Shown here in pieces: positions 28,014 to 57,111 of a stretch of DNA of 64,000 bases (positions within the stretch are counted from its first letter, which is position 1; the number at the start of each line of letters is the position of its first letter). The position numbers and the translations under genes are program-made. The notes below the pieces were generated by a model. It had not been told where the DNA came from. It searched no databases and saw only the letters and a list, made by a program, of their open reading frames with translations. The DNA is from Mesodorylaimus sp. YZB2_4 (lineage: Eukaryota; Nematoda; Enoplea; Dorylaimida; Dorylaimidae), in assembly GCA_030248295.1 (NCBI GenBank), contig JASANH010000193.1, positions 558,001-622,000 on the forward strand, read 5' to 3'.

Positions 28014-28092
28014 TTCTAAGTAATCGCAGGATCTAAGTAATCGCAGGTTCTAAAAGGTAAAAGGCTCTAAGTTATCGCAGAAATCGCAGGCT
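28014..28092 (+). repeat. short tandem repeat beside the LINE insertion
   Basis: Three to four imperfect copies of CTAAGTAATCGCAGG(A/T)T occur directly before the LINE; AATCGC occurs again just after its 3' tail. Confidence 0.55.
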
Positions 28093-28853
28093 ATTGTCTT
28101 CAAATATGGAAATAACAAAGTTTCTCCACCGACTTTATTCCTTCGAGGTCATCCGCTGGACTACCTTACCGAGGTAAAATATTTGGGCGTCCTTTTCTCA
28201 GCTGACATGAAATTCAATGAGCACGTCTCTGCGGTTGTTAAAAAGTGCAATATTATGCTTGGTGCTCTCAGGCGTAAGTTAGGAAGGCATGTGTTACCTG
28301 TGGTGCTTAAAAACGTTTACGAATCATGTGTCGGGTCTATCCTTGAATATGGTTGTGTGGCGTGGGACCCGATTTTAAAGTCTGATATTGCTCATTTAGA
28401 ACGTGCAAATTTTTATGCACTTCGACTTTTTATGAACGATTTCATGGTTCCGTATGAAACAGGTCTAGCATCAACTGGCTGGTCATCTTTGTATGCTCGC
28501 AAAAAACTTTTGAAGCTTTATCAGTTTTATAAGTACTATCATGGTATTCACGACTTTTGCAATGTGCGCTTTGTTCATAGGGCGGAGTTTCGCACCAGCG
28601 AAAGGATCTCGGAACTTCATCATCTTGTCACGCCTATGCCATTTTATGAATCTTATAAGCATTGCTTTTTGTATTCAGCGATTGAGCTATGGAATAATTT
28701 ACCCAATGATGTAGCTTTTTCGGGTTTGTCGAATTTTAGATCTGTGATTTCTAATAGACATTTTAATTTGTAGTTCTTTTTTCTCCGTGTTTCATACATT
28801 TCCAAGTGCGCTTATGCGTTTATGTATGAATAAAGCATGACATGACATGACAT
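28085..28853 (+). mobile_element. 5'-truncated non-LTR retrotransposon (LINE) fragment
   Basis: An open frame from about 28110 to 28773 encodes the end of a reverse-transcriptase protein: VKYLGVLFS..MKFNEHV is the start of the post-RT thumb region, followed by GALRRKLG, YESCVGSILEYGCVAWDP and IELWNNLP, the usual C-terminal signature of Jockey/CR1-type LINEs. The frame is intact to its stop. A short 3' untranslated region ends in GAATAAAGCATGACATGACA plus one more GACAT-type unit. Catalytic RT and endonuclease parts are missing, so this copy is dead on arrival. The tail matches the 3' end of SINE-A. Confidence 0.8.
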
Positions 28854-30135
28854 AATCGCGTGTTTCTTGGAGTGACGATGGAAGAATGCTTCCGGAGTTT
28901 TCTGCTAACTGGTTACTCGGTATTCTTAGCGAGCCATGTGGAAGCTGCTTTCGGTACATGCCCGGCTAATGCGGACATGCTCGTAGGTATGTACTTGGTT
29001 TGTCGAAAGGGAAGATCATCCACCTTGCTCGTTGCTGTAGGTTTGTTCGTTGCTCCGAGCGCTCTCGGAGGCTTGTCATATGGAACCGCTGTGCAATTTT
29101 TATTTCGTCTGGACGTGACGGAAATCTACGTCTTTGCGTGGCCGGCGCCACCGCTAGTCTGGTCTTCTCAGTCGCCTTCTTCGTGGACTGTTCAGTCTTA
29201 GAAGTGACGGGCGTAACCAGCCCGTATCCCGTGCTTAGGAATACTATGTCCGAAGAACCAGAGTTACCATCGCTGATCGATCCCTGCAACGCCAACTGTA
29301 CGTGCCTAATGGAGTTCGATTCCGTGTACTCTCGGTCCACTGAAATGGCTGGCTTGTCCTGCGATCCAAATCACATATTTTTCAAAATGCTTCGCTAGTT
29401 GCTACGAAGAGCCACTTGGGAAACTGGAAAGTATTACTCAGGGTGCACCGACACTTTTTCCGCTCTTGACCTGCTTTTTCGTTTACTTCAGACTAACGAT
29501 AAGCCTAATTGTGCGTGCTTGCCACCGAGGAATGGCACTTTGATGCTGGGTCGCTGTCAAAAATGTCCTTCTTACAGAACATACGCATTTCTGCTGCTTA
29601 TATCCTGGATGGCTCTCTCCGTTTATGTTCGATTTAATCCTGTGAAACAGATATTGCTCAGGTAACTTTTTTAGATCACTTGTTTTGCTCTCAAGCTATT
29701 TTTTAGACAGGGTGAAGTCGAATTTATTTTTAGGACGTGGCCATGGCGCTGACAGCAACAGTCGAAAAATTACTGTGTAAGCGTTTATCATGAACAAGTT
29801 TAGCTCTGATTTCAGCCTTTTTTCTTTTAGGTATTCCGAGCCCGTTTATTTTTGCTGTCGTTATGCGTAAAGCTTGTATTCTTCATTCTTCTGTCTGCGG
29901 AAATCCAAAAAATTGCGTCATATTCAACAGTGTCACCCTGTCCGTTGCCTGCAGCACTACAATAGGCATCATCAGCCTGCTGTGCCTGTTTTCCCTGCTC
30001 TTCGCCTTGTGTTCTCACACTAAAAGGCCAGCCATATCTTCACGGAACAAAGCATGTCTAACACCGATATCGGAGTCGTTAGAAGTGGAATCATCGAAAT
30101 CGAAATCGTCTTTAACTGAACCAATTGAACCCTAA

Positions 30136-30684: not shown

Positions 30685-32499
30685 ATGAACTTCAAAGATT
30701 TTTGGGAAAGCAACGGACGCCATCTTAGGCAAATGTTTTATTTGGTTACACCACAAGAAACCTCTTTTCCATCCATGGAAGCTGTACCACCCATGCTCGA
30801 CGAGGTGAGCTCTCTTTGATCTCTCTGATACAAGTTATCGAATCCTATTTTTCTAAACAGGCTGTTCCATGGTTCATATTCTTGATTCTCTTGGAGGCAG
30901 CTTACTTCTGGAAGAAAGGACGTAAAGATGTGTACGGACTCAATGATTCCATGACATCAATGGGAGCTGGATTCATTCAAATGACCATGACGTATGCTTG
31001 ACTTTTCATTCGTCGTACCAACTATACGCCATATTCTATTCTAGAATCGCCTTCCGAGTAGCCGAATTGTCCCTGTATCGCTGGGTGTACGAAAACTGGT
31101 GTATTTACAAGATGTCATGGGATTCACCTTGGACTTGGTTCGCATCTTTCATCGCCGTTGATTTCGCTTACTATTGGTTTCATCGGGCCGGTCATGGAAA
31201 GTGCTAACTGTGCTATGCAGGAACAATCATACTCCATACTGTCTTTCTTTAGAAGTCAATGTCCTTTGGGCCATGCATCAAATGCACCACAGCTCAGAGT
31301 ACTACAATCTGTCCACAGCTTTGAGGTGAAGCCTTATATAAGTGTCCATATTGTATCGGACACTCCCTCCGGCCTTGTCTTTCTAGGCAGGGCATGTTTC
31401 AACAATATGCTTCCATGTTCTTTTATATTCCCGAAGCATTTTTCGTTCCACCCCAAGTACATATGGTGCACTCAATCCTAAGCCTTCTCTACCAATTTTG
31501 GATTCATACGCAAGTGGTCGGTTCGCTGGGGCCATTGGAGAAGATCATCAACACTCCGTCAAGTCATCGAGTCCATCATGGTCGAAATCGATACTGCATC
31601 GACAAGAACTACGCTGGTGTGTTGATCATTTGGGATCGTATGTTTGGTACATATCAGCCAGAACTAGACACCGAGCCTATTTCATATGGGCTGGTCTGCT
31701 TGGCAAACTCCTTCGATGCCTTGTACTTGCAAGTGAGTCCAGCATGTGTTACCCAAACACAGACACTGCACTCGCCTTTCAGATCTTCTACCTCAAACAC
31801 GTGTTGTGGGATAAGCCGCGTTCCATGGAGGGGATCGGCAATAAGTTGAAAGCCGTATTCTACGGTCCAGGTTGGCATCCTGGCACTGGTCGTTGCGGAG
31901 ACTTGGCTGAGATCCCCGACGTAAGTCATTTAATTTTTCACTGCTCCATGCCTGTAATGCATCATGTTTCAGGTTGATCACACGGCTAAACCCTACGATA
32001 GTGGCGTACAACCTTGGGTTTCGATCTATGCATTGGTGCATGGCATTTTTGTCCTTTTGGGTAACCAATTAGTGGCGAGTCGAATTGGAGTGAGTCACCG
32101 TCAGCAAGCCGGTCATGCCTTTTTTCAGCTTTGATTCCTTGTAGAACTTTCCGTGGACTATTCGTTTGCCCTTTGCTGCGCTCCTAATCTATTCGGTCCA
32201 GGTACTTAGTTACTTACTCGAAAAAAAGTAAGAGTTCAAATTCATTTGTCCTTGCATCTATTAGGGGAAAGTGTCGTTTCAGAAAGTTTGCTCCCATTTT
32301 GGAAGTCATCAGATGCCTACTGCTCTACATTTACTGTTGCCCGCTCATTTGGGCACCCGAGAGCACCGCTTTTACCATCGCCCAACTAATTCTTATGGCA
32401 TCGGCCGCTTTGTGGATTCCACTCACCATTGCAGGCATACGTGCTGGATTAGGGAAGGATTTTGAAATTTTTGAAGCAGGCAAACCTGTCAGCGAATGA
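30685..32499 (+). CDS. agmo: alkylglycerol monooxygenase, array copy 1
   Basis: Nine exons: 30685-30804, 30861-30991, 31045-31196, 31253-31325, 31387-31732, 31783-31920, 31973-32089, 32145-32227, 32283-32499; 458 residues (human AGMO 445). AGMO is a tetrahydrobiopterin- and iron-dependent ER membrane enzyme that hydroxylates the ether bond of alkylglycerols, giving a fatty aldehyde and glycerol. The eight-His scheme of the fatty-acid hydroxylase superfamily is present: HRAGH, HQMHH, and SSHRVHHGRNRYCIDKNYAG. Also typical are WDSPWTW, YQFWIHTQVVGSLGPLE, LIIWDRMFGTYQ and YGPGWHPG, and several membrane spans at both ends. The exon 3 donor in the conserved phase position reads G|GAAAGT rather than GT. 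First of four tandem copies. Confidence 0.9.
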
Positions 32500-33702
32500 C
32501 CTGAGATGTGTGCTAAGACAACACAAGACTAATAGAAGCCTCGTTTTGTAAACGTGAAATAATATTATTGGGATGAATGATATTTTTAGCCCTTGCAATT
32601 TTTACGTTTCTCTGTGTTCTACATCTCATATGTTGTCGCCGTTTGATTTGTAGTCTATACCATCTCTCTACTTAATCTGTGTTCATGTTTTATTCCCTCG
32701 CCGAATGCGGGTAAACTCGAGGGTGAGCACATTGCACAAAATGCCGCCAAGAGTCAAATACTTTTTGATGAATGCCCATCCATTGCGGAAGACGGCAGAT
32801 GGCTAACCTGCACAAAGGCCCCAAAAAGTGGATTAGTAATCTAAAAAACCGAGGACAGAATGAATACCACAGGTTTCGTTCATCCACCATTAAACCTAAA
32901 CAACGGGATAAAACCTTCCAAAAACCAGGTTATACTGATAGTGAGCTTGATTTGACAGCAGAGTGAGTACAGAAGTACACAGTGACATGTGAATACGCTG
33001 CTTATGGTCAAGGTAGACCCTTCTCTCCTTTTTGCCTACCGTATCACATTGTCTCCTGAAGTCTTTCGGCTACTTTACTCTCTATGTACATAATGTCACA
33101 AGCCCCGTCAATGAGAGGGCTAAGTTTTTTGAGAAGCCTTGGACCACTTGTCGTTTACAAATGTGCCAGACACTTCATTTCGACTGTACAATAGAGTACC
33201 TACGTCGACTCAGCACAGTTTATTATGAGGCATGAGTACACGGGTGCGCGTATTCAACGTGGAACATGTACGCTGAGTATGACTTGCTTTGAATAGGTTC
33301 TTCCTGAAAAAAGACACCCCTCACTAGCACTAAACTTACTCAATGCAGTGCTTCCTTAGTTTTGGGACAAAAGAAAGAACGTGAAAGGCACCCAGATATT
33401 AAAAATTATTCACATGTCCAGGTGCACTTCCCACTAAAATGGTAACTCGTGACATTTATCGCTCACAATGGGACTGGTTCGACGCTTGTGTAGTCCTACG
33501 GGGGCGGCCAGACTTTGCCAGAAAAAAATGCCACAATACCGAACCTGTCCTCATCATATTTAGGTGCGTGCAAGCCCAGAAAAATCCATTTTTATCAATG
33601 CTTGCCATTCGCTAGACCTATCCTAACGTGCTTACGAGCGATTTTTCGTTTGTCGCTAATAACCCTGGTTTTCAATCGCTGGGTCAATCATAACATCTAA
33701 GG
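32500..33702. other. spacer between AGMO copies 1 and 2
   Basis: No gene supported; short frames on both strands have no splice context or family likeness. Confidence 0.35.
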
Positions 33703-36700
33703 ATGGGTTTTCCATTGCCAAACGCGGGCCCGTACGGACTTTACATACGACAACTCTTCTATTTTGTAACACCTTGGGAATCAGTTCTGATCGAGGAGGT
33801 ATGAGGGCACAGTGTTCGGCAAGCCATCCAAGATAGGAAGCATGACCTATGGTCGAGCTCTCGCATACGTAAAACGTTTTCTGATCATTAGTTGATGAGA
33901 CAAAAGAGAAATGATTTCAGAAATTTGATTTTTATCGCTGATGGTTCCTCGATTTTGGTTTCTGAAATCATTTTTCAAGTAGCTCTCAGACTCGAATGCT
34001 TTCGCAGGCGCTGTCCTAACAGCCACAGGTCAGCTTGCATTTTTGACTTTGAGGAAGAAGGCGTTTCTTTGGTCGATCCTTATCAAGCCTCATCTTCACT
34101 GTGAGCAATCCAAGAATATGATGCCCGATTTTTTTCTAGACACTTCCATGGCTTATATTGCTAGTGCTTGTGGAGATACTATACTGTTGGAAAAAGGGAC
34201 TGAAAGATGCGTACCGGCTGAACGATTCGATCGCTTCCATCAGTGCCGGTTTCTTTCAGAGGATAATAATCGGGTAAAGAGTTCGTGTGGCACTTACGAC
34301 GGTGTCCGACAATGAATTTGCTTTTTGATAAACTGCGGGTTTTTCCCCAAAGAGCAATTGTTTTAAGGTACCCACCATTGATGTTAAAATATTGCAACCA
34401 ATGTTTCCTGCATTTTCCATTCCATGGATTTGTAAACTCCAAAAGCCAGCTCATTGTCGGACAGCTCCCCTCCCCGTGCATACCCATACCCATACTAACT
34501 TGTCAGCAAGTGACTGTGTGCGCATGTGTTGATGAATGTGTGGCCCTCACAGTCAGATTCAGGCACTGAAACTTCTGAGTGATTTCATCAGGCATGAGCG
34601 CCCACTCCGCATCTCGTCCTCGCTCTTCGTCCCTCGGCCTTCTGTTGATGAAAACCTGCTGATGTTTTCATCTTGGTCTAATACAGTAGTATAAGAGCTC
34701 ATTGCTACTCTTTGTTCTAACCAGGAGTAAGAATGAGAAGGAAGTCAGCATGTACTTTTATGAGGAAGCAGAAAATGAAATCCTGCAGCGTCTACAACGC
34801 CAGAAGAAGTCAAGGTGCACTATATGAACTGCAATCCCGAACCTTTTGCCACCGTCCTTGTGCTGCCGACCAATGGAGTAGACTTCGACTTCTTTGCTTT
34901 CTTAGGCTTATATATCGAATGACGGAATTTCAATTATACAGCCACATTTACAACAATTGCTGCGTCTTTGATCTACCTTGGCATTCCCCCTTCACATGGC
35001 TCATGGCCTTCGTTTCTGCTGATTTTCTCGGCTATTGGATTCATCGCGCCTCTCATGGCACGTAAATGCACTTACACGTGAGCACTTATGTTTTCTCTCA
35101 CCGTCTTTTTTTAGAAATCGGATTGTTCTGGGCGATTCATCAAACCCACCACAGTTCAGAGTTCTTCAATTTGACGACAGCCTTCAGGTAAATTTTTCTT
35201 TTGCATTGAGCTTTTTTCAAATAGAAATGGCTGGGCTGATAAATCCTTCAGACTAGCTAATAATATGAAATTTTTGGAAATACTAGTAGAAAAGGCAATA
35301 AATAAGACGACTGCCTAGAGTTATCAAAGAGCAAATTATAAATCCTGTTTTACAATCATTACAGACAGACCCATTTTCATACGTCCAGGCAATGTAGGAA
35401 ATCTGGACTGATTTCTCTCTCCTCATAAATTACTCCCACGCAAAAAAGATAGTTAACGCTAAAAATGAGGGCGCATTGGCCGAATAATTGCGGTGTGCAC
35501 TGCGCATGCGTGATGAATGGCATGCCATCGAAGGAACATTGTCTGCATATGCAATACACTCGCACTGATGTGCTGTATATTGCTGCTGGAAGTCGGGCAA
35601 AGGCTTCATGCAAAACAACCGATTGCATCACATTTGTTATTGTCTTACAGATCAACAAATGAGACGCATACGATAAACACTTTGCTTGGACATACTGTAG
35701 TGCGTAGGTTCGAAATAACGATTGACAGTGAGTCTACCTGTCATCTTTTCGTGCATAAAACCTCAGCTTCTGCAGCACGTTCCCGCATCTCCAGCATAGT
35801 ATCATCTGAGTCAGGGATTGACCATAGATATATGCTATCAAGCACAGATATTGTAAGACGTGGTAAGTTTACGCACTCCGCATAAAATCGGTATAGTGAC
35901 CAGTGGCTCTAGTAGTCAAAGACCAGTATAACGTCAAACTGAGTTGTTAAAGAGTCTCTTTTATCACGGCTGTCCTCGATAGACCAGGCCATCAAGAGAA
36001 ACACCGCCGGTTCTGAAGCCTGTGTTACACTTGCAAAAGCTTATTTTGAAAGTCTTACGCCCATCACATTCTTCTAACGTTAGTACGATGGCTGGAAGGA
36101 GTGCCTGAAAAACAATTTAGGTCCTGTATGCGAGTCTGCGTTTTAGGCAGAACATCCTTCAACCATTGGTGACAATGTGTTTCAATCTGTCGGCAGCTGT
36201 GCTTATTCCACCAAGCGCCTTTTACGCGCATCTTATGCTAAATATCCATTATCAGTTCTGGGTACATACCGAGGTGATCGGTTCGTTGGGACCTTTGGAG
36301 AAAATTATCAACACGCCTTCTAGCCATCGAGTTCATCACAGCCGCAATCGGCTGTATATCGACAAAAACTATGCTGGTGTTCTGATCATTTGGGATCGCA
36401 TGTTTGGAACGTACCAACCAGAACTAGATAACGAACCTATTTCCTACGGGTTAGTAAATCAAGCTAATTCGTTCGATGCCATGCATCTGCAGGTTAGATA
36501 AAGTTTAATCTTGTCGGCCATGCACAGTATACACATGACTTCTGATGCAGTTTTCCCACCTGAAGTATGCGTTATGGGATAAACCACGTTCTATGAAAGG
36601 AGTCGCAAATAAACTGAAGGCTGTATTTTATGGTCCAGGCTGGCATCCTGGAACGGCCCGGTGCGGAAACACGGAAGAGATCCCCGACGTGAGTCTTTTT

Positions 36701-37289
36701 AAGTAACTTACTGTACCACTAAAAATTCCAAAGCAAAAGTTAAGTTTTAGGTTGATCGTACCTCCAAACCTTACGACACTGATGTGCAACCATGGGTCTC
36801 AGTTTACGTTCTCACACATATCATCTTTACTCTTGTGGGGTATCAAATAGTGATCAAGACGATATGGGTAAGAGCGCTATGTGTGCAATGAGAGCCACTC
36901 TTTGCAAAGATGTACTCTCTTATTTTAGTATTTCCCGTGGACGAATCGCTTTGGCTTTGTTGCCCTCCTGGTTTACTCGATTCAGGTCCTTAGCTGCTTG
37001 TTAGAGAAAAAGTATGCAACTATCTCGCCATGCCTACCGCTATCTGTCATGGTGCCCATTTAGGAAATATGGTGCAATCTTAGAAGTGATACGATGTCTA
37101 CTTTTGTACCGTTACTTTTGCCCCACTCTTCGGGCAGTCAATGACACCGCCTCACTAATTGGCCAAGTCATTCTATTGGCATCGGGCGCCTTATGGACTC
37201 CATTTGCCATCGCTGATATCCCTGTCACTCGGTTGGGAAAAAAGTTTTATTTTGGACTTTTGGAGAACACCAGAACTATCGCCGACTGA
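33703..37289 (+). CDS. agmo: alkylglycerol monooxygenase, array copy 2
   Basis: Nine exons: 33703-33798, 34140-34273, 34906-35057, 35115-35187, 36147-36492, 36551-36688, 36751-36867, 36929-37011, 37064-37289; 454 residues. Exons 3 to 8 have exactly the lengths of copy 1 (152, 73, 346, 138, 117, 83). Histidine motifs HRASH, HQTHH and SSHRVHHSRNRLYIDKNYAG are intact. Exon 5 shares LGPLEKIINTPSSHRVHH with copy 1, so the two are the closest pair. Intron 2 (about 630 bases) and intron 4 (about 960 bases) are much longer than in copy 1. The exon 3 donor is G|GCACGT, a GC donor. Confidence 0.88.
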
Positions 37290-37740
37290 CAGCAAAAATG
37301 TCAGTGCGACGAGAAAATGCTGCTTTTTTGAATTGAAATTGCTGCAGTGGTTTGACTATGACAAACCTTGCTTCAGTTGCTTTGCCGTTAATTTAGCGGC
37401 AGCCAGCTGTGTTATCAGTTCGTGCAGGACGAGGGGTACAATATACAAGATGCCGCCACATGTTTTTTGTGTGCTCTCTATACAGTCTGAAAATGAGCGC
37501 GAGCGTATGTTTATACTGTATGTCAGCAAAACAGTGCCGCTACTACGCTATGCTATACTTTACTGTGCCAAAAGCGGCTCCCAATGGCGCTACTTGCCCA
37601 CAGTACTACTATGATGTAATTCAGATAGTATTAGGCGAGATGTATGGAGTAAGAGGAATGAAAGATGATAAAAGTCTCTCTTAGAGGGAAATTAAAGGGT
37701 GGACGCACGTTGACCAAAACCAAATGGGCACATTGTTTTA
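37290..37740. other. 3' spacer of AGMO copy 2
   Basis: No gene recognised; short frames only. Confidence 0.35.
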
Positions 37741-37744
37741 CACG

Positions 37745-38185
37745 CCGCCTCGGTGGTGTAGCGGTGAAAGGCGTGTGTCACAGTTTGCTTGGCAGAGCTG
37801 GAAATCGGTCGGCTGCGAGTTTAACTCTGGCCGTCGGAGAAGTTGGTGAAGTTCTCTCTGCGCCTCGCACGCCTGGTGGTGGTTGACTTACCCTTTATCC
37901 GTTCGTAGTCGATGAACGACGAGAGGCCCTATGGGGCGGAAGGCTCACGAATCCGCGTTCCGTCACGGGGCACAGGCTGGGTTTGGTTGCCCCTCGGGGT
38001 AACCACCGACATCGCTGGGTTGCGACTAACACGCGCCCTTGCCCGGCATGCATCCCGGATGGACCCTAGTCGATGGCAAGATAGGGTCAACCAACAAGCC
38101 CCCTAGCCCGCGGGTAAAGGGCCAAAAATCGACCTCGACTAAAGCGACCACGATGGGTCAAAACAAAAAAACCATTGTTTTACCC
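37745..38185 (+). repeat. SINE-C copy with tRNA-like head
   Basis: Begins GCCTCGGTGGTGTAGCGGTG, which fits a tRNA D-arm/box A, and continues for some 440 bases with the same blocks as 9083-9470: GTGAAGTTCTCTCTGC, GAGAGGCC, GCAAGATAGGGTCAAC, GGCCAAAAATCGACCTC. A poor A-rich end follows. Confidence 0.75.
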
Positions 38186-38544
38186 ACGCCGATTTTATGC
38201 TTGGGCATCAGATGAAAGTACAGTATGCAACAGGGAAATCAACAGAGACATGGCAGCCGACGCAGAATTAAATTAGAAATTAAAAATTGGCAAAACCACC
38301 TTTCAGTACTTGGCTCCATAAATACTTCCAGATGCTCTGCGATTTTACTTTTGCCTTAGGATATCCAACGGGGATAACGAATAAGACACCACATCTTTTA
38401 TGGCTTTTTCCAAGGAGTTCCAGAGGTCGCCAAGGTGCCAAGCACTGGCAAATTTCAGACCCTATCGCCATCGGCATACTAAGCCTATGGTTAAAGTCCG
38501 TAGAAAGCACCTCACCCCTATACTCGCACCGCCGACAAGATGCA

Positions 38545-38780
38545 TAGGAAGCTGCCGCGGCAGAATTAGGAGAATGCGACATCGCAGACCCGACGTTGCA
38601 TGACGACAAGCCATTCAAAATCGATCTGCTACTGGGGTACTACTATCTATTGATCGCTGCAGGAGCCCCAGTCCGAATTTAAGATACAATCAGCATCATT
38701 CCTACCATGTTCGGTCATATTCTTACGTTTTGGAGGTGCGCTCATCATCAGATCTCAGTGGTCAGCAACGAACACTATGT
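38545..38780 (+). mobile_element. degenerate BEL/Pao-like retrotransposon scrap
   Basis: One frame reads ECDIADPTLHDDKPFKIDLLLGYYY, like the segment between protease and reverse transcriptase of BEL/Pao elements (LADP.F....IDLLIG.D.YW), and a hit to ..PT.FGHIL follows after a stop. No LTRs or longer domains seen. The family assignment is tentative. Confidence 0.4.
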
Positions 38781-39966
38781 TCTTGTTGCTAGCGAGCTCA
38801 AATAGTCCCTTGCGAAGCCTGGGCCGCTGTTGCGGCACGAACCGGGATGCCCAATGTCGCCATGACGGAAATCTCAGACTATGAAAACCCAAACAAGTTA
38901 TCATGGCCGCGCATATCTGTTTCTGTGCGGTTTTAGCAATTTTAAACTTACAGCGCGCTTTTTAGGAAAATTCTTCATTGTTTGATGCTTTCCTTTTTTG
39001 TGTACAATAAGCTAGTGTCGAGATAGGCCCTGTCCAATGCTGTGGGTGCACTGGTTCAGCACATTATGCATGGTTTTTTGCGCATTGTAGGCTTTGTTTT
39101 GTTCACATCTCATGACAGAAACGGGCTATGTGCCGAGATAGGCTCACTTCAACCAAATGTAATGGGGAATTGGAATGTCGCTACTGCTGGTGATGATGAA
39201 CATATTATTCCCGTTGCAGCTAAAGCTGGGCTTGCAGCTGCACTCAACTTGGCGATGCCATGAAAATGAATGCAGTTTCTAGTTTTCCCGGCTGGGTAGT
39301 CTCAATGGAAGGGAAAAATCGCTGAGCAAATGCATATACAGCTTGCATGTTTTGGAGTTCAGTCCTAAAAGTGGCTTTACCAATGTCAAACTTCCCACCG
39401 TTTTTGTAAAATTTGAGGTTGGATGAAAGATGTGGAGAGAGGCATTAGAAAGAGTATTCAATTCTGCGTCGGCTGACCTCTCCCTGCTTATTCTAGCTAA
39501 CAGGTTGAGTGAGTGAGTGAGGTATTTCCAATATCGACCAATGCACATTTTTGTGACCCTTTTGCCGACACCCCTAGATAGGAGCGATAGCTGGCGGAAC
39601 TAGCTTCGTTATAGAACTCTACCAAAGTGCCATATTAAACAGGGGTGTCAAATTTTTAGGTTGCCTTGGGTCCAGTCGTCTGTTTCGAACTCCTCGGAAC
39701 CCTTGTCTTTAACCCTGTCTCTTCCTTAGAGACCTAATAACACCGTCCCCAGAGAACTTGCGTCTTACGACTAGACATTTTCGCTTGTGCTGATTGCCGA
39801 AACCAGTTACGCAGTCAACACACGTAGTTTAGCGATTGTCTTTAAAGAGCCAGCACTAAAACTCTGCCGTGCGAACATCCTGTATTATTGCTGCCTGGAT
39901 GCCCATCGCCGTAAACGTCCCTTTACGAATCAAGTGCATCGTCATAGTTGAAGGCATTTGTGGAAA
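38781..39966. other. spacer before AGMO copy 3
   Basis: No gene recognised. A short GAGTGAGTGAGTGAG run lies near 39504. Confidence 0.35.
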
Positions 39967-42900
39967 ATGGTCCTTCCTTTGCCAACTGTAGGGCCTCTGG
40001 GTCGACATTTGAGGCAATTATTTTATTTGGTAACACCGTGGGAGCCGATGCCATTGCTCGTGGAGGAAGTATGCTAGGAAGTGCAAAAAATGTTCCCTCT
40101 CATCTGCTGGCTTTTATGTAGGTGATTCCATGGATTATAGTGCTGATAGTTTTGGAAGTGATATATGGCTGGAAAAAACGGGCTGGCCTATATGGGCTTC
40201 ATGATTCGATAGTTTCTATTAGTGCTGGTCTGGCCCAACAAACTGTGATCATGTGAGTATCATGAGAATCTATCCAGACATAATCTTCTCCACATCTGTT
40301 CTTCTGTAGTCTCTTTTATCGAGCAGTAGAAGTCGATCTCTACTGCCACATCTACAGCAGCTGGCGTATTTGTGAGCTTCCTTGGAACTCAGAATCAGCC
40401 TGGGCATGGCTCCTCGCCTTCTTTACTTTTGATTTCATCTATTATTGTGCCCACCGTGCTTCGCATGGTGCGTCTTTGCGCGCCTACTGAGTGCTTTCAC
40501 TTACAAATTATTTTATCTTCTTGACATAGAAATCAAGTTACTCTGGTCCTGGCATGAAGTCCATCACAGCTCCGAATATTTCAATCTGACGATTGCATTC
40601 AGGTTTGTTTGTCTTGACTGCTTTGCATGGAAAAGGAGGGACAGGCTCGAGCATAAATCATAATGGGATCTTCAAAAGTGGGTGGAGGGAAATTATGCCT
40701 GGTCAGCTGCCAACGTGATAATTTACAGAAATTTTAATGGCCTCATAGAATCCAGTTACATTATTCGATGGAGCCCGTGCAGTTTTTCCATTTCGCATTG
40801 TACAATCTAAACAATGTACAAATCAAATATCTCGATATTACTTAACGCAAAGTCTCTCGGCCCAGTTTCTCTAAGCGTATTGATGACTATAAACATAGGC
40901 CTAAAGCATTATATGTCTACAGTAATTGCTTTCGAGAAACTGGGCCCAGGGGAGTTATTGCTTGTCTGATTCAGTAGTCCATGCAGTATCAGACGCAACA
41001 CTGTAAGTCTAGAAACTAGGCTGTTTATTATAACTTAAGATTCGAACAAAAATCTTTAGAAAACCTGCACAATATTCCTGCAATGGGTACTTCGACTAGT
41101 CAGCGTTGCCTCACGATCAGTGACCCGCAGTGTCCACTGTTGCCAGTCGATGAAGGTCTCTTGTATAGCAGCAAGGTGCAGCGGAGGAGACATAGAATGG
41201 GAATAGCGTCAATATGAATCAGTTTTTCTCAGTATTAGAATATTCAGCGTGTTATTTAAGGGAGCATAGAGTTCCTCAAAGCTTAAGCCGCAGTAATAGT
41301 AAGCCAAAGCAAAAACAAGTTTTTTGCCGATTATCCACAAAGTTATTCAAAATAATCATTGTGTACTTCTAAACCACATGCTAGACACATGCAACCTGAC
41401 TGCATTTTCTTTGGGATACCAGAATGCATTTTTGGGTTTCAGGATCAGTAAGGTTATAATACTGACGAGTATAGGTAAGTTCACTATATCAACAAAATGC
41501 TAAGAGTTCGGCATTTTTCTCTTCGTATTGCTTGGGAGCAAGTGGCTGGACTGTCCCATGTTCGATCCTCGGCGATGGAGGCTTGTTTTCGAACCATAAA
41601 CCCTCACTGACCTCACACGCCAGGCCATAGGTCACTCACCCCGTACCGTCGAGATGCTTTGAGGGGAGAAACACCGACAGGCTTCAAAGCCCACCCGCCA
41701 TTGTCCGAGGAGGTCGGTGTTCAGTCCAGGATGCCCTCGCGTGGAAGTGCTACTAGCGAAGATACGCAGAGGGACGCTGCTGTGTGTGCCGATCTTCGCA
41801 CAGCCGAGCTTGGAAGGTTTGACTGCTGGCCGACTCCAGCCAAAAACGGGTTTCGGCCGACAGAAATTTTAAAAAAACCAAACACCTGGAAAAAAATCTG
41901 CCTTGTGACCAGTCTGCGCCCTTGGCCTTGTTAAGAGGTTCGGCTGGTTTGACGTGACGATGAAAAACTTCATGGTCATTCATTTTAGGCAAGGCGTATT
42001 ACAACCGTTCGTGCAGTCGTGTCTATCTATCTGCTGCACTCCTGATTCCACCCAAGGTTTTCTTTTTGCATGTGACTCTAAATATTACGTACCAAATCTG
42101 GATTCATACTCAAGTGATAGGGTCAATGGGATTGTTTGACCGAGTCCTCAACACGCCATCTAACCATCGAGTACACCACAGTCGGAATAGAGAGTATATA
42201 AACAAAAACTATGGCGGCGTCTTAATGATTTGGGATCAATTGTTTGGATCTTATCAAGCTGAACTCAAATTCAAGCCAATTAAATATGGTACGACTGAAG
42301 CGCTGAACTCGTTTGAATTCTTCTCGGTGCAGGTACAATGCGTAGGATTAGGATAGTCCTTGACATAACTGCTTAAAAGCAAGTTTTTTCAGTTCCTTCG
42401 CGTTAAAACCTTCCTTTTCGGCAACATATTTTCAGCCAGAGCGCTCAGAAGCAAAGATCTCTTTTATAAGGCAGATTCTTCCAATAGCTTATCGGAGGAA
42501 GAAAAAACTGATGACTCGGAAACCTTGTCAAAGGTGAGCTAGGCTGGATAATGCTGATGGTCTAATGCTCAATAAAGTCGTATCTTAAGGTGACACATCC
42601 GAAAATCAAGTATGACACAGGCGTATCGCAGTGGGTGTCACTTTACGCACTATTTCACACGCTCCTGATCCTTATCACGTTCGGAATGATAGCACCATCG
42701 CTTCCAGTAATGCCAAATGTCTGGTCCGTTCGTGCAATCGCAATAACAATTCGCGCTATCTTGCAGGAAATTTCGTGGCTCATGCGCATTGCATTCTTAT
42801 TGGTGGAAAGTTGCATGCTGCAGGCAATCAGCATGTTAATGGAGAAAAAGTAAGTCTTCTACAGAGCGTGTCTCTTAGCGAACAAACCACGCTATTCTAG

Positions 42901-43057: not shown

Positions 43058-43381
43058 AAACTGAAAGGCGCTTGCAATTTGGCAATTGGAACACTGAAGC
43101 TATGAAGATTCCTGTGGGTTTATGATGCTGTGCCATATGACTCTTATACTTCATAATGTACGATAAATCAAACGTTATCCCGAGTGGATTGGTATAGTAC
43201 ACATGAAATAAAAGCCCCCTTGTTTGGAATCAATTCATGAACTGACTTGAATGATATCTGCCATCTTCATGCACCTTTAACCTGCGCCGCGAGAGCAAAG
43301 CGCACATGCTCACCCAAATCCCACGCAAACAGCAGATTTTCACGGAGATTACGAAACATTCGACAGTCCACCAACTACCTG

Positions 43382-43408
43382 CTATGCTATGCTATGCTAT
43401 GCTATGCT
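43382..43408. repeat. pentanucleotide microsatellite (TATGC)n
   Basis: About five perfect copies of TATGC in a row. Confidence 0.9.
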
Positions 43409-43492
43409 AATTTATCTCTGCCCAAACACTTATCAGTGCACTGAACGGCGAGTACATAAGAAAAACAAGAAACACGAAAACCGTCGAAAGAA

Positions 43493-44100
43493 CTAAAACT
43501 CTGTTGCCAAAATGTGGCTTTTGAACACGTTATAAGATCCAATGGCTACCTCATATGGCATCACTTTTTTATCACGATTCCAGAAGTTCTTTATCACCGA
43601 ATATTCAAAACTTTGACCAAAAGTTTCTTTGATAAGACCAGGTAAGTTCAAGAAGTGTGCTTGAGTCGTGCGCTCATTATATCTTTGACCCGAATCCACA
43701 ATGTGAATGAATCTGCTATTTGTTGGATATGCAGCGTGACCATGGTACAGTTTGTAAACCTTTTAACCTTTTGTAAACCTGTAAACTACCTTTTTGTTCC
43801 TGCCTTCTGTTCAGATGCGATTTAAAAAAAAACAGTTTAACTCTTCAAGGAATAGTCAGTGAATGCCTGGCGCCACAAATCAAATTCGCTGCCGTATACT
43901 CGTGCCATGGATATGGCTTGGTTATTTGGATCCAGGTGTTGTAGAACGTGTGACAGATGTTCTACGCTCACGTGACGGCGGGTTCGGGCTGATATTACTA
44001 GCGAGCGGTCCAAGGTCTTCAATAGCCCAAGCCTGCTAGAAAGTCTTATTCCTGCAGAGTACAGATCATTGAGACCCCGATTCCTGCAACGACCCCTCAC
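43493..44100 (-). other. two orphan minus-strand open frames, possible gene fragment
   Basis: The frame ending at 43493 reads upstream through VDSGQRYNERTTQAHFLNL and beyond its first ATG (HAAYPTNSRFIHI), looking protein-like. A second frame, 44100-43837, contains RRHVSVEHLSHVLQHLDPNN. They could be exons of one unrecognised or decayed gene. No splice join between them could be found. Confidence 0.25.
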
Positions 44101-44574
44101 GATCAGGCGAGTACGCCGCGCCTCCCCGAGGTGCCTGCAACTTGCCTGCCTGCCTGCTGGTTAAATGCACCCGCTCCTAGGACGCTGGCCAACAGCTCTA
44201 CTGTCGTTGGCGCAATAAAGACCAAAGTCGACACCAAAGGATCCTTTACGAAGCACAACAATGCACGACGATGTCTCAGCAGTCCTGGATCTTTGCACAG
44301 ACAAACCAAGTACCTGTCTTGGAGTCAACTCCTGGACACTTCCAGTATGAAGTGATGGGAAACGACTACCCGCACAGGCCCCTTGAGAGTATGCTAACCG
44401 AAGTCCCTGGCTGGCGCCTGGCCTGCCCCGCACTTCTGCCAAATGGGGTCGACAAATACAGTAAGAAGGGTGGCTCCCCACGAATTCAGGACAATTAGAT
44501 GGAAACTAATCGAACAAAAGAAAGAAAGGGGGAGCCCTGATGTCTCCCAGCGGCCTGTTCTTACTACCCTGTCT

Positions 44575-44619
44575 CCCCCCCCCCCCCCCCCCTACCGAAC
44601 CCCCCCCCCCCCCCCCCCC
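44575..44619. repeat. two long C homopolymers
   Basis: Eighteen and twenty consecutive C bases are separated by an 8-base CTACCGAA-like spacer. Exact lengths are likely unreliable. Confidence 0.8.
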
Positions 44620-45197
44620 GACTGCCCTAGTCCCTACAACGCCACAGCTAGGGCAGTTTGCCCCGAGGGTAGGCCCCGAGAATTCTCGACGCCCCAAGCG
44701 GCAATAGTCACAAGACAGCTGAACAAGATTACTCGTACTTTTCTGATTCACCCCAGCGATATGATTATATTGTATGCAGTTCCACTAAACTGTGCCAAGC
44801 GGCGTGAAATTGTGGGTTACAGGCCAAAATTATGGGAATCAAGTAAACTACTGACAGCTATTATCGTTTGAAATACTTTCGAAATGGCCTGCCCATACGG
44901 ATTTGCTTGCAAAAGTAAGTGAAGTCAGATGCAGTTTGGGTGAAAGCTTATTCATGAGAACTTGTTTTAGTCATAAACAAGCCGTCTACGCGTTTGGCCT
45001 GGGGATAAAATTTTCCCATTCTTACGTCACATGCACATCTATTATTTTTCTTTAGTGCCGTCAAAACCAGTTGTACGCAACCTCGTTCTGGCGGAACCGT
45101 CCATCCTACCAGCCCATGTCGCCTATATCAGCACGAGTAAATTCACTCGAAGTCTCCGCAGCTACCAGTGTACAGTAGTAACAGTTCTTGCCACAAG

Positions 45198-48132
45198 ATG
45201 ACGTTGTCCAAGCTTTATGGACCGTATGGCCGGCGTTTGCGCCAGTTGTTTTACTTGGTCACTCCGTGGGAAACTATGTACTCATCATTAGACGAGGTGC
45301 CGGAGTTCACTGATGAGGTATCGATAGTCGAGTTTTTTGTCCAATATATGTTGCACAAAGCTTTTTCCATTCAGGCCATCCCTTGGTTCATCTTTCTGAT
45401 CATCCTCGAAGTTTTTTATTGCTGGAAGAAAGCCATAAAGGGTTCCTATAATTTAAATGACACGATGACTTCCCTTGGTGCCGGTTTTGTACAGACTATG
45501 GTCAAGTGCGTCCAGTTCATAAAGTTTAAAAAAATTTGAACTTTACATGAAGGTTACCCAAATTTTTAGACTGGCCTTGAGGACAATAGAGATATCTCTG
45601 TATGTATGGGTATATGAGCATTGGTCAGTTTATCGATTGCCTTCTGATTCGGCACTGGCATGGCTGCTAACATTTGTGGCCATGGATTTCTGCTATTATT
45701 GGATGCACCGCGGGGCACACGGTTAGTTGGCCAAATATGCAATGATTGGACTTCTGCGCAAGTGATATGTTTTGCAGAGATCAATATTTTCTGGGCGTTT
45801 CATCAAACCCATCACAGCTCAGAGTATTACAATCTTTCGACTGCGCTCAGGTAGGGAAGAAAGGATGTGGATCTCCGTGCTATAATCTGCTTACATGCCG
45901 GGCATCCTCAAAACAATCGCTGGCCTGTTGGTTAGTACCAGTATGCTTCTGGGTCCGTATTTGGACGAATGACTGACGATGAGCTTTCATGCGGCACAAA
46001 ACCCAGAGCAGAACCGAATCTTTCGACCGGCGGCCGCATTTATAATAAGCAAAGCTGGGGAAAATTTTGCCTCCTATCCGACGTGTGCCATCCTAAATTT
46101 AGGGTGTATCCTAGCTGACTATAACAGTTGCCCCTAGTCCAGCTGCAACATGATAATTCAAGCAGCTGTGGCTCCTCGCAAGGGGCGTTTATTAGAGGAG
46201 TCTCTTCAAGCATAGCGATTTTATCCCAATCACAACCTTAACACCGCCTTCTGATGCTTCAGACAAAGCGCATTTCAACAGCAGATTGCCATTCTCTTCT
46301 ACCTCCCTCAAGCTCTTTTCATTTCGCCCCACATGCACATGACCCACGAAGTTCTCAATCGACTGTACCAATTTTGGATTCACACACCAACTATCAATCG
46401 ACTGGGGCCCATAGAATGGATTCTCAATACCCCATCGCACCATCGGGTCCATCACGGTCGCAATCGATACTGCATCGACAAGAACTATGCTGGCGTATTT
46501 ATAATTTGGGACCGTATGTTTGGCACATTTCAACCCGAACTTGAGTCCAGCCCGGTCGTGTATGGATTAACTCAGAATATCAATAGTTATGATGCTTCAA
46601 AGATTCAGGTACAGAATGTAAAAGTCAATCTGGCAGGTCTTCTAACTTGATCATCTTTTTTGCTTACAGCTCAGTTATCTATGGCACATTCTTTTCGAGA
46701 AAGTGCCTTCAGTCAATGGAATACCCAATAAGCTAAAAACTGTTTTCTTCGGCCCGGGCTGGTCTGTCGGGAAACCGCGCTTGGGAGATTTGAATGACAT
46801 CCCTGAGGTAAGTGAGAGAAAATCTAGACTGTTGCATTAAAAGTGATTTTGATTGCTGCAGAATTCTCATCCTGAGCTAACGCATCCGAATGTGTTGCAC
46901 TGTACTGTTCGAATGTCTCACGAGGTTTAAAATTATGTGACCAACGTTCCAAACGTCTTCGCAATCTCCGAGAATGCTTCTTCTCACCGCCAGTCCTCAT
47001 TTTGACCAGTCTTATAACTAGTGTAATACTGAACTGAACGACCGGGTCAGTTACTGGAGGGATGGACGCCAAAAACCCAGGGCAGCCATATAAGTCTTCC
47101 GACCTAGTCCATGTGAAATCCTTTGGCCTATCATGGGGAGACAAGTGCAGACAAGTGCATTCACGCCTAATACACATGGCTGAAACATCCCTGACGGGAC
47201 ACGCTCTCAGCTGCTGGCTCTGTGCAGAATGTCGATTGACAGTCGAGCCTCTACATCAGCATCCTTTTAAAAAATTATGAGCAGTGGGAATTTTCGACAA
47301 AACGACGAAAGAAACTTTGATGATTTGATTCCAGAACTCACAGAAAAGCGTCTGGCCATTTTCCCTTCGCATGTTTCCGAGCATTTTCTCCAGGCCAAAA
47401 ACGTGCCTGCTTTTGTCTCAGAAACTTATCGCTAATGTAGGCTAGTCAAAAATTAAAATTTGTTTTGTTTACTTCGGTTTTTGCGCTCTATTCGCATATG
47501 ATGAGAAAAACATCTTGGCTTTCACCCATGGCGAGCAGCTCAAGCCTATAACTGGGAGTCAGAAACGTGCCTTACTTTTGTCTACCAGACGCAGTGACTC
47601 TGCAGTATATTTTTTCAGATTACCTATCCAGTTCGGAAATACCATTCAGGCGTATCAGGATGGATATCGATATATGTCTTTGTTCAAGGCTCTTTTTCTG
47701 TTATTGCGTACGATTCGTTTGCAAAGAAGTTGAAGGTACTCTTTGCTGCTTGCAGCATTGCACATTTAGATTGTTTTCTTTAGCTTTTACCCTGGTCGGT
47801 CAGTATCCAATTTGCAGCGGCAATGGTCTTTTCAACATATGTTTTGGGGGGCATCATGGAGAAGAGGTACGTGTGTGTTCTATATTGAACACGGGTGCAA
47901 TATATGAACGAGCTCTGATTTCAGCCGATGGTGTCCGTATCTTGAAATCATTCGCTGTCTTTCATTCTTCTTCTGGGTTTTCCCTATGGTTTGGCCTCAA
48001 GGGCATCTTCTAAGCTTTTTGCAAGTAGCAATGCAGATATCACTCCTTATTTGGGTAGTAGCTATGGTAGCATCAAGACGAAATGTAGCATTGTTCAAAC
48101 TTAATGGGCATGGCAAGTCGTGCGCACACTGA
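45198..48132 (+). CDS. agmo: alkylglycerol monooxygenase, array copy 4
   Basis: Nine exons: 45198-45317, 45375-45505, 45570-45721, 45778-45850, 46263-46608, 46670-46807, 47619-47735, 47784-47866, 47925-48132; 455 residues. Exons 1 to 8 have the same lengths as copy 1 (120, 131, 152, 73, 346, 138, 117, 83). All His clusters are intact: HRGAH, HQTHH, SHHRVHHGRNRYCIDKNYAG. Here NTPSHHRVHH and FFGPGWSVGKPRLG are the forms closest to vertebrate AGMO, so this may be the most conserved copy. The exon 3 donor is ordinary (G|GTTAGT). Introns 4 and 6 are longer (about 410 and 810 bases). An in-frame ATG ten codons upstream exists at 45168; the internal start matches the copy 1 N-terminus in length. Confidence 0.9.
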
Positions 48133-49022: not shown

Positions 49023-49043
49023 CCCCAAAAGTGTAATTAGTTC

Positions 49044-49200
49044 GGGTCTGTGGCCTAGCGGTTAGGCGTCTGCCTCTCAGGCTGGGTACGCATTTGAAAG
49101 GGGAGGCTTCGACTCCCTCCTGGGTAAGTCAAATATGTGTTCCTTAGCCCTCGAGTGCGCTTGTACGGTGTTTGGCTATGGATAAAGTATGACATGACAT
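49044..49200 (+). repeat. SINE-A copy (tRNA-derived, LINE-like tail)
   Basis: Head: GTCTGTGGCCTAGCGGTTAG (box A), CTGCCTCTCAGGC in the anticodon-arm position (resembling tRNA-Glu CTC), then GGCTTCGACTCCC (box B). Body: TTCCTTAGCCCTCGAGTGCG. Tail: GATAAAGTATGACATGACAT, matching the LINE at 28085-28853. Confidence 0.88.
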
Positions 49201-53800: not shown

Positions 53801-55893
53801 GCAAATTTACTCATCAATTTCAGCTTATATATAATGACTAAAAATCGACCTACGAAAAAACGCTTTCAAAAATCTGGATGACTCTAACGTGCGCTTCAGT
53901 GAAGAAAATGGGCTCAAAGGCAAAAACCTGAAAAATGCAAAAAATCATAATCCCGATCCCGAAAAAAAGATCATCCCGATCTCCAAGTAGACAGCACTAA
54001 TAGGAAGGGCAGCTGGAGGTGATACCCAACCGCACGGTCGAAGAGATAGATAATAACAAGGGGCCAGCCAAGAGGCCGTAAGGGCGACCTAATAGAATCA
54101 GTCAGGATTAGATCTAGGCTAGCTCTGCTCTCACTAGAGGCCTGAGCAGGAAGTATTCATGCATGCCGGGCGGTCTAAACCGGATGGGGAAGGAACTTTT
54201 ATCATTAGACGCGAGTTGCGCTTCTCCCACCGCCAATTGAGCGTGACCCCACGCTCTTTCTGGACCAGCTACTCAGAGCTGGGAGCCCGGCACATGTGAC
54301 TACAGTACTTCCTGCTCAGGCCTCTAGAGAGAGCGAGCCTACATCTAATCCTCACTGGTTCGACCAGGTCGCCCGTAGGGCCTCTTGGCTGGCCCCTCAC
54401 ACTGCCCGTCACTTACCATCTATCTCATCGACCGTGGGCTAGGTATCACCCCCAGCTGCAACGGCAATTTCCCTCTGTGCGTCCCCACTAGGCGCACCTC
54501 CACACGAGGGCATCCTGTGCCAGCAGCAGCGTCCAAAGACGATACTGGGCGAGAAGGGAGGTCCTCCCCGGCTGATGGTACAGAACTAGTGCCCTGATTC
54601 CCTGCTCGTTCAGCGTTCGCCACTCGACGGTATTGGGCGAGTCAGGTGTGCAAGGCCAGCGATGGACTTACTAAATCACCGCCGAAGGCCGGTTCCCATT
54701 CTGAGAACCGGCTTACCAAACTGCCGTCCTCCATGGGATCTGAACTGCAGCCCCCCCCCCCCCCCCCCCGATCAGGGCGAAATGCGAGACCAACGCCTCG
54801 ACTAACTGAGCCACCGCGGCTCCTCCTGCTCAAAATTGCTGCCCCAAGAAAAGCGGGATCAACTTCTTCGCCAACCCTGATTCCCGGCTCCTATCCGGTC
54901 TTGGTTTCTATCCAGTCCCAGTCCCTATGCGGGGAGGTTTGAGGGGTAAAGAATTCAAAATACTGCGGATGCCATTTATGCACAACCAGTCCAGTGGGTT
55001 GAAGTGCAAAGTCTATCAGCCTGCATAAAGAGATACTCAATGCAATGCCAGAGAAAGATTTTCCGAAATTTGAAAGTTCGAATCCGACCGACAGCTAGGG
55101 GAAGATCCTTAAGTCAATCTACCGGGGTCGTGGCCTAACGAGTTAAGGCATTTGCCTCTCACGCTGGGTGCGCACTTAGAGGGGATGGTTCGACTCCCGC
55201 CCCGGTAAAAAATGATTGTCTAATTTGAGTTCCTCAGCCCTCGAGTGCGCTGTATGGTGCTTGGCTATGGATAAAGTATGACATGACATCTGGCCCGGCC
55301 CGGACTAGCGAGTCGGTCGATGCCCCCAGGGGTACAGGTCCAGGGATACGGACGGGCAAACTGGGCACAAATGTTGTGATGACGAAAAGTGAAACCTTGT
55401 CGTACCTTTCATAACGACAAAAATACACGAGCCCATCGTTTTCCAAATAGTTCTCATCCGCTCCAATTTCTTGAGTCGCTGGCTTTTTGCAGATCTTGTC
55501 GATTTTTGCCTCGTGCCATGTTCCATCCGTGTCTCGAACATCAATCAATTGTCCCGCATCGAAATATTCGGATTCCCCCGGTTCCAGGTCGACGCCATTA
55601 TCGTTGCTAACCACTTCGCTTGGCTCACTTTCATCGCTATTAGCCTTGTCGTTATCGCCGCTAATTTGGGTCCGTTCTTGGGCGAATACCGTCAAACCAT
55701 CTTCGATTCGGTAATTCAACAAAGTTTGACCGTCTTCGAGAACCTTTCCTTTGCAAATCAAACGCAACGTCGATGGATCTACTTCCAATTCGGATGCGAT
55801 CTTTTCACGAATTTCTTCGATCAAGTTCTGCTTTGAAAGATCTCTGAGAAAAAATACTTTTTGACGAAGCACGTGCTGAACCCGTAGTAACAT
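50802..55893 (-). CDS. uhrf1: UHRF1-type ubiquitin ligase (UBL, tandem Tudor, PHD, SRA, RING)
   Basis: Seven exons on the minus strand: 55893-55406, 52885-52521, 52457-51937, 51877-51605, 51552-51388, 51329-51030, 50978-50802; 762 residues (human 793 as recalled). Domains in order: ubiquitin-like (about 1-78, [19 protein letters not shown]); tandem Tudor (about 120-280); PHD (about 285-345, [28 protein letters not shown]); SRA (about 400-575, [48 protein letters not shown]); RING (about 680-725, [19 protein letters not shown]). The NKR finger that inserts into DNA in human SRA is retained. UHRF1 reads hemimethylated CpG with H3K9me and ubiquitinates histone H3 to recruit DNMT1. Presence of all five domains implies maintenance methylation. 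The 2.5-kb first intron is full of SINEs. An in-frame ATG 31 codons upstream was rejected because the UBL fold starts at MLLRVQH. Confidence 0.93.
53320..54200 (+). repeat. SINE-B-related composite repeat
   Basis: 53325-53430 resembles 13640-13740 (GTGGGTT..GGCCCC, CACGGGA.TTCC, GGTGACCAGCT). 53440-53600 matches 62215-62345 (ACACGCGT, AGGTTCGAATCTACCCTGCG as box B, CGAAACGGACGCTAATA). 53995-54190 matches 62366-62580 and, inverted, 54300-54470. It lies in UHRF1 intron 1. Confidence 0.65.
54255..54833 (-). repeat. SINE-B copy, inverted relative to its left neighbour
   Basis: On the minus strand the head reads GGAGCCGCGGTGGCTCAGTT, a good tRNA box A, followed by a 19-base C/G homopolymer (54751-54769) and the body shared with 13640-14700. 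Its 3' half is the inverted partner of 54000-54190. Confidence 0.75.
55124..55289 (+). repeat. SINE-A copy (tRNA-derived, LINE-like tail)
   Basis: The clearest copy: GTCGTGGCCTAACGAGTTAA (box A), TTTGCCTCTCACGC, GATGGTTCGACTCCCGCC (box B), CTCGAGTGCGCT, and the tail GATAAAGTATGACATGACAT. It lies in UHRF1 intron 1 in the opposite direction to the gene. Confidence 0.9.
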
Positions 55894-56948
55894 TGCAGAA
55901 GCTTGAAGTTCGACCGATATAGCAAGTTGATCTGAACTTGGAACAACGTTTTTCCCTGAGATAATCTTGCGAATCGACAGGTCCACTCAAATTAGACGGT
56001 GAAACTAAACTTAATCAAGGACATATGAAGAACAAATGGACAAACAACCCGCTGTTCGGAGAAAAGAGAGAAAACAAAGCCCGCCGCACCCGCGTCAAAC
56101 TTTTCTAACAATAGAAGCAAGCAAATTTCGAATCGAGCCTCCGACTCCAAACCCGCGTCAGCACCGTACAGGAGCACACCTTTGCGACAAGTTTGGCTGC
56201 TTGCCCCCGAAGCCGGGAAATTTAATTTTCCGGGTTGCACTCCAATACTAGTTCACTCGCGATTTAATACTCTTATGAAAAGATTTTATCCCCAAATTTT
56301 TAATGACGTATCACCAGCAGCAAAAACTTTCGATTTACGCTCATACAGGATAAAAAGTATCATTCGAAGAACATGTGCAGAGAAGGTGCCAGTGGAGCGC
56401 AATCTTCTTGAGTCCACTTCCATTCTAAATATGAGTCAGCCTCAATCTGCCTGGACAAATGCTGACACAAAACCTATCCTTTTGCTTGTTTGGTTTGCCA
56501 TTCTGCAGCATGGCTTACTGCTACTGTTACAGCACACAGCACCACTTTCTGCAGGTATGCTCTTCCGCTGTGCTAAAAATTTGAATCTCGAACTGGAGTT
56601 CGATACCTGCCATGCCAGACTGGGACGATGATCGCCGTAGACCAAAACGCAGTTTAAAGCTCAAGGTGACCGTTGGTCGGTCCAAGATAGGCATTCCAGA
56701 CTGACGGCGGAGAAGAGGCAACGGAACAGTTGTGTGATCCTTATCAGTCCTGCGGGCCATGGCGGGTGGGAGAGGGCCACTGGGCCCTATTACACCAGTC
56801 TTTTGTCGGAGAGTGGAGTATTTCACCAGGCTGTCTCCCCTGACTGGGAGCTGTCAACAACTCTGGCTGATATTTCAACCGCAGGCATAGTCGCAACCGA
56901 AGTCTTTTGTCCCACCGACTTCAGTCGATGGCATCCTCTCCCATGCCT
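55894..56948. other. UHRF1 upstream region
   Basis: Likely holds the UHRF1 promoter. No convincing coding frame, TATA box or repeat. Confidence 0.35.
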
Positions 56949-57111
56949 GGGTCGTGGCCTTGCGGGTTAAAGCGTCTGCCTCTCACGATGGGTGTGCACT
57001 TGCGGGGGAGGGTTCGACTCCCGCCTGGGTAAAAAATGATTGTCAAATATGTGCTCCTTAGCCCTCGAGTGCGCCTTATGGTGCTTGGCTATGGATAAAG
57101 TATGATGACAT
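56949..57111 (+). repeat. SINE-A copy (tRNA-derived, LINE-like tail)
   Basis: GTCGTGGCCTTGCGGGTTAA (box A), GTCTGCCTCTCACG, GGGTTCGACTCCCGCC (box B), CCCTCGAGTGCGCC and GGATAAAGTATGATGACAT as tail. Confidence 0.88.

Follow-up and report, generated by a model that had tools for sequence, protein, structure and literature searches.

The SINEs of Mesodorylaimus sp. YZB2_4 very probably depend on borrowed enzymes: two families, SINE-A and SINE-B, appear to hijack the reverse transcriptase (RT) of a group of LINEs through a hairpin that all of these elements carry in their common 3' tail. The original prediction was of this kind, namely that a SINE is mobilised by a LINE RT via a shared 3' end, and it is supported by the common tail, by a conserved hairpin with compensated, covarying changes and by the related RTs found upstream of it; in addition, identical young SINE copies were observed. 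Our analysis started from a stretch of 64,000 nucleotides (positions 558,001 to 622,000 of contig JASANH010000193.1), hereafter called the window, and was extended to the whole assembly.

Three SINE-A copies and one LINE fragment with ATAAAGYATGACAT-type ends had been predicted in the window, and both their coordinates and their ends were confirmed. The three SINE-A copies lie on the plus strand at 49044..49200, 55124..55289 and 56949..57111, with hairpins at 49141-49188, 55231-55277 and 57055-57101. The covariance model R1 (see below) scores these hairpins with 57.1, 57.1 and 58.4 bits, where the sequence of the second was included in the model and the letters of the third equal a model row. 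A fourth, diverged SINE-A copy is located on the minus strand at 8907..9071, and the decayed tail of a SINE-B, with 11 of 49 positions mismatched to the SINE-B tail, is found at 62897..62945 (minus strand); within the window, R1 misses both of these ends. Employing the 18-mer ATAAAGYATGACATGACA with up to three mismatches delivered four matches in the window, three of them exact (28830, 49182 and 55271) and one with two mismatches (8906, minus strand), whereas the shuffled window gave a mean of 0.08 and at most one match. A chance origin of the shared tail was rejected on this basis. The SINE-A copy at 56949-57111 is not amongst the four matches because of a 2-base gap in the repeat of its tail.

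Genome-wide, the tail 28-mer TGGCTATGGATAAAGTATGACATGACAT occurred 228 times in exact form, while its reversed control did not occur, and a SINE query led to 41 matches on many contigs (best 40 of 2426 candidates scored); SINE-A is thus a short, high-copy and dispersed element. An identical 165-nt form of SINE-A was present at half of the 30 fetched SINE loci (15), and the family was therefore active recently. Strings resembling the A and B box consensus are visible in the SINE head, which had been predicted to be tRNA-Glu-like. The head looks tRNA-like, with 26 bits against the Rfam tRNA model at all three loci given, yet this is below the gathering score of 29, so that Glu is no more than a candidate isotype. 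ARAGORN, in its bacterial setting, reported a tRNA neither in the window nor in locus L005. SINE-B has head and body in common with SINE-A, and the outer stems of both differ by compensated changes (TTAGCC/GGCTA versus TTCACC/GGTGA); as judged by this comparison, SINE-A and SINE-B are two sister families with a tRNA-like head.

Target-site duplications are mostly absent. In 29 of 30 copies (L026 was skipped), the longest flank repeat had a mean of 4.76, compared to 4.26 in re-paired flanks (highest 4.82), and the longest individual repeats were 13 (L029), 9 (L015) and 6 (L012 and L017). Such a scarcity is compatible with CR1/L2-like elements, but lends no support to the proposed hijacking. At positions 1501-1665 of L004, a SINE-A copy sits between the inverted repeat ATTTCAGGATA / TATCCTGAAAT, not between a direct repeat.

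The LINE fragment of the window belongs to a family which we call LINE1. It is 5'-truncated, spans 28083..28853 on the plus strand (5' end approximate) and comprises the C-terminal coding part of an RT (open frame 28054-28773), a 3' UTR and the tail. The latter consists of the hairpin with AATAAAGC at 28791..28836, which model R1, built without LINE1, recognises with 44.5 bits (E 4.1e-7; fold z -2.80), and of three (GACAT)n units at 28837..28853, read directly in the sequence. A LINE1 query gave 43 matches (best 40 of 130 candidates scored), and no unbroken full-length LINE was found among the copies examined. For example, the LINE1 copy L063 contains an endonuclease-like region (Exo_endo_phos, 21.9 bits with a cut-off of 24.5) and an RT (RVT_1, E 2.5e-30), with two internal stops. 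RVT_1 lies above its cut-off in LINE1, LINE2 and LINE3, and the best matches of the LINE1 RT amongst solved structures are R2 and LINE-1 proteins. These LINEs may be CR1/L2-like. At the LINE1 match L038 the alignment reaches the tail, but the tail scans recognised none there. The LINE1 tails of L047, L048 and L049 (contigs C900, C382 and C923) end in (GAT)n and have similar surroundings; these loci are perhaps segmental duplicates or haplotype contigs.

LINE1 is not the only LINE family with this end. The apical string AGTGCGCNTATGCGTTT occurred 96 times in the assembly and its reversed control not once. Reading 60 of the 96 places revealed 32 with a LINE2 stem, 18 with a LINE3 stem, one LINE1 and seven SINE-B, besides L094, a distant LINE3-like end, and L064, which fits no family. 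The RT of LINE1 shares 66% identity with that of LINE2 (198 aa) and 62% with that of LINE3 (177 aa), and on the strength of these comparisons LINE1, LINE2 and LINE3 are three related families bearing the hairpin end. In the LINE3 copy L126, the RT is interrupted by other sequence and its C-terminal part stops about 100 bases before the tail, while L124 has the same LINE3 end without interruption; the foreign sequence inside L126 (about 2080-3260) is perhaps a reversed RT-bearing element. Behind four LINE2 tails (L112, L114, L119 and L121) stands a near-identical stretch, which reads TCTACACTCACCAACTTACG in three cases; the tail could have been captured within another repeated element.

A relaxed apical pattern matched 42 places, compared to 0 for its reversed form, and the 20 places read delivered, besides SINE-B, two more repeated tails with the 3' arms ACGTGAGG and CGCTGGG. 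The outer stem of the former is similar to that of the group and its fold not clearly better than shuffles, and the minimum free energy fold of the latter lacks such an outer stem. Both were left uncounted as LINE families of the group, since the comparison comprised their tails only. Two tail patterns searched in viral contigs found no match. The window itself holds a further candidate on the minus strand: a C-terminal remnant of 89 aa at 43493..43762, with 34% identity to LINE1 over 82 aa (pair E 9e-9), lies 41 bases upstream of a candidate hairpin at 43451-43409. Together with a subsequent (ATAGC)n, this hairpin forms the 3' end at 43381..43451; R1 scores it with 21 bits (E 0.043), and the outer register of its minimum free energy fold differs. 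We regard this as the end of a distant LINE, probably homologous to the hairpin end of the group.

In the predicted RNA fold, the shared end is composed of an outer stem of up to nine pairs, an internal loop, an inner stem of 4-5 bp and a tetraloop; past the hairpin follow an ATAAA-like stretch and the short repeat. This two-helix fold is alike in all five family representatives (LINE1, LINE2, LINE3, SINE-A and SINE-B), with 7 or 8 versus 2 nt in the internal loop. The fold energy is below that of shuffles for LINE1 (z -2.80), LINE2 (-3.38) and SINE-A (-2.51), and not clearly so for the representatives of LINE3 (-1.13) and SINE-B (-1.04); a LINE3 copy with the letters of L087, in which the mismatch is paired, reached -3.71. 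In the outer stems of the five representatives, which were chosen by us, 41 of 45 pairs are standard when each family keeps its own two arms, whereas swapping all 3' arms among families (44 derangements) led to a mean of 25.5 and a maximum of 30 of 45. Amongst the 120 possible arm permutations, only the true pairing reached 41.

Similar results were obtained with 18 rows chosen from LINE2, LINE3 and SINE-A, whose kinship inflates the following counts. Of 234 pair cells, 91.5% are standard, and double-sided changes occur in 7 of 13 pairs; if the partner is slid by 1-3 columns, pairing amounts to 28-53%. Shuffling the 3' letters matched the percentage paired, the doubly changed cells and the covariation score in 0 of 500 cases each, whereas shuffles do reach the number of double-change pairs (236/500) and of pair types (356/500). 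Outer pairs 4 and 5 are unpaired in 6 and 7 of the 18 rows, respectively. The model R1 was built from these rows with LINE1 held out, and in the window it recovers the LINE1 end as well as three SINE-A ends, two of these being identical in their letters to rows of the model. Furthermore, the fifth inner pair of SINE-A is kept in all 38 distinct copies selected by exact flanking GAGT and TTGGCTA (27 C-G, 8 U-A and 3 U-G), and four of these copies show one mismatch at another inner pair. Thus modelled, the tail is predicted to be a hairpin conserved among the families, in which stem changes compensate each other and most stem letters differ between families.

Short terminal repeats replace poly(A) in the tails of SINEs and LINEs alike, with (GACAT)n, (GAT)n and (ATGAAC)n as the variants within the group. 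We collected 21 LINE1 tails (ungapped, at most 14 mismatches, duplicates removed by context), amongst which 16 are GACAT-type, two GAT and three other, one of the latter (L044) being GACAT shifted by one base. SINE-B tails are ATGAAC-type in 10 of 11 cases, AGGAAC variants counted, and the same type is found in the LINE3 copy L101. Within a set of 15 chosen LINE3 copies, in whose tree nearly all forks are open, (GAT)n copies differ by 1.4% on average (21 pairs) and (GACAT)n copies by 9.2% (21 pairs); by this measure, the former are young and the latter older. Since a single family, LINE3, bears (GAT)n, (GACAT)n and (ATGAAC)n, the repeat unit changes while the hairpin stays. An origin of such repeats by slippage may be supposed by analogy with UnaL2 (PMC3747384, in excerpt).

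With three LINE families at hand, the tails were compared for the likely partner of SINE-A. Alignment of the tails scored 68 for SINE-A and LINE3 (z 18.5) and 60 for SINE-A and LINE1 (z 14.3), and according to these scores the closest LINE tail to SINE-A is that of LINE3, a family outside the window, and not that of LINE1. We nevertheless considered that the actual partner is LINE1 and neither LINE3 nor a set of families, as ATAAAGYATGACATGACAT is common to LINE1 and SINE-A and most LINE1 tails are GACAT-type (16/21). However, outside the repeat LINE3 is nearer to SINE-A (38 versus 28 for the hairpin only, including the AGCC/GGCTA stem core), and LINE1 as the true partner is rather unlikely. 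A search for a LINE-like version of the SINE-A tail gave 46 matches, eight of which were fetched. Seven were SINE-A copies or remnants, five with clear heads, one with a weak head (L155, E 0.012) and one consisting of the tail only (L154); in the eighth, a decayed match (L152), neither SINE nor LINE was recognised. A LINE with the exact SINE-A stem was hence not found among these eight of 46 matches.

This latter result, as well as the (GACAT)n of identical SINE-A copies versus the (GAT)n of the youngest LINE3 copies, would fit a different scenario: the tail could be a relic of a fusion between a tRNA-like head and a LINE tail, with the SINEs now being copied by an RT that is blind to the hairpin. 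We regard this as improbable, because the stem pairing of SINE-A and SINE-B is upheld by compensated changes, the fifth inner pair of SINE-A is present in 38 of 38 copies, and the terminal repeat of the SINEs is not poly(A). That the LINE tails are only apparent, produced by the insertion of SINEs or of a single duplicated segment downstream of LINE copies, is hardly credible: probable duplicates with common flanks do exist among the LINE copies (L047 and L048; L112, L114, L119 and L121), but at many loci the flanks past the tail differ, the stem letters of LINE tails are not those of SINE tails, and an A-/B-box-like string within 140 bases 5' of the tail was found in 0 of 67 LINE tails (21 LINE1, 30 LINE2 and 16 LINE3). 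A separate SINE insertion behind the LINEs was rejected for these reasons. At many loci, the short 3' UTR of a LINE copy leads into the common tail, past which the flanks are unrelated, and the tail is present in LINE1 copies, where the hairpin starts 17-19 bases past the RT stop codon in all four copies with frames read. The LINE thus ends in a tail of its own.

If SINE-A and SINE-B do hijack the RT of the LINE group, the following mechanism could be envisioned. The ORF2 protein of the LINE would bind to and recognise the 3' RNA hairpin along with the ATAAA-like linker; within the hairpin, whose apical part (AGTGCGC-loop-GCGTTT) is constant, the outer stem would be read by its shape. Target-primed reverse transcription would then start in the short terminal repeat, and the LINE enzyme would copy in trans the SINE with its tRNA-like head, slippage giving rise to the terminal repeats. 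One might speculate further that a single fold is read by the whole LINE-RT group with little regard for stem letters, that several LINE families serve one SINE at once, and that the enzyme synthesises the repeat unit de novo, the unit being free to change on a constant hairpin. We put this extension forward tentatively, as a possibility that falls somewhat short of probable.

Besides the mobile elements, other aspects of window and assembly were recorded. At 31245-46544 of the window lie four coding blocks that are similar to one another (repeat families D1 and D2) and presumably resemble alkylglycerol monooxygenase (TMEM195-like) genes. The exact SL1 22-mer, searched as a direct test of the nematode assignment, has no match in the assembly and lends that assignment no support, though an assembly gap is also a possible cause. 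In addition, 15 COX1-like matches with TGA codons lie on several contigs, including L149 (C73) and L150 (C273), and are perhaps nuclear mitochondrial copies. Read with the invertebrate mitochondrial code, the COX1 frame has its best matches amongst solved structures in COX1 entries such as 1occ, presumably the bovine protein, a result that is neutral as to the taxon, and the frame after COX1 in L149 looks to us like ND4.

An endonuclease-like region followed by an RT, repeats other than poly(A) and few target-site duplications are features that these LINEs presumably have in common with CR1/L2/Rex1/Crack-type elements. A first comparison is offered by stringent-type LINEs of the L2 clade, zebrafish ZfL2-1 and ZfL2-2 and eel UnaL2 with its SINE, in which the 3' hairpin is needed for retrotransposition. 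In the zebrafish elements, recognition is specific for the loop and general for the stem, and about half of the activity of ZfL2-1 remains when it carries the ZfL2-2 stem (PMC4176376, in excerpt). The elements described here are like these (PMC4176376, same excerpt) in their 3' hairpin, their short terminal repeats and a SINE on the tail of a LINE. Unlike the stringent L2-clade LINEs, they have hairpin letters of their own, a predicted form of two helices separated by a 7/2 internal loop, and (GACAT)n, (GAT)n or (ATGAAC)n as repeats. With their constant apical letters and exchanged stems, the families look, by analogy, like a natural counterpart of the zebrafish stem exchange.

A second comparison is provided by LINE/SINE pairs of the L1 clade in monocots, in which compensated stem changes, conserved unpaired letters and a related 3' end of about 50 nt were described (Ohshima, PMC3747384, in excerpt). 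All three features are shared by the LINEs and SINEs studied here, whereas the hairpin differs and the monocot pairs are from plants and the L1 clade; in the majority of plant L1-clade LINEs, the 3' end is poly(A) (PMC3747384, same excerpt). Amongst nematodes, SINEs have been reported by repeat annotation in some species of Pristionchus (PMC9297572, in excerpt). As far as these excerpts go, LINE/SINE pairs with hairpins (fish, PMC4176376) and with compensated stems (monocots, PMC3747384) are thus already known. In a limited search that covered open-licence papers, no published description of the present pair was recognised. One hairpin shape here extends across several LINE and SINE families in which most stem letters differ. 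In this one 145 Mb assembly, the three LINE families and both sister SINE families thus carry naturally exchanged stems around a constant apical motif, a system that makes testable whether an RT reads the shape or the letters of a hairpin, whether one SINE has several partners, and how repeat units originate and change.
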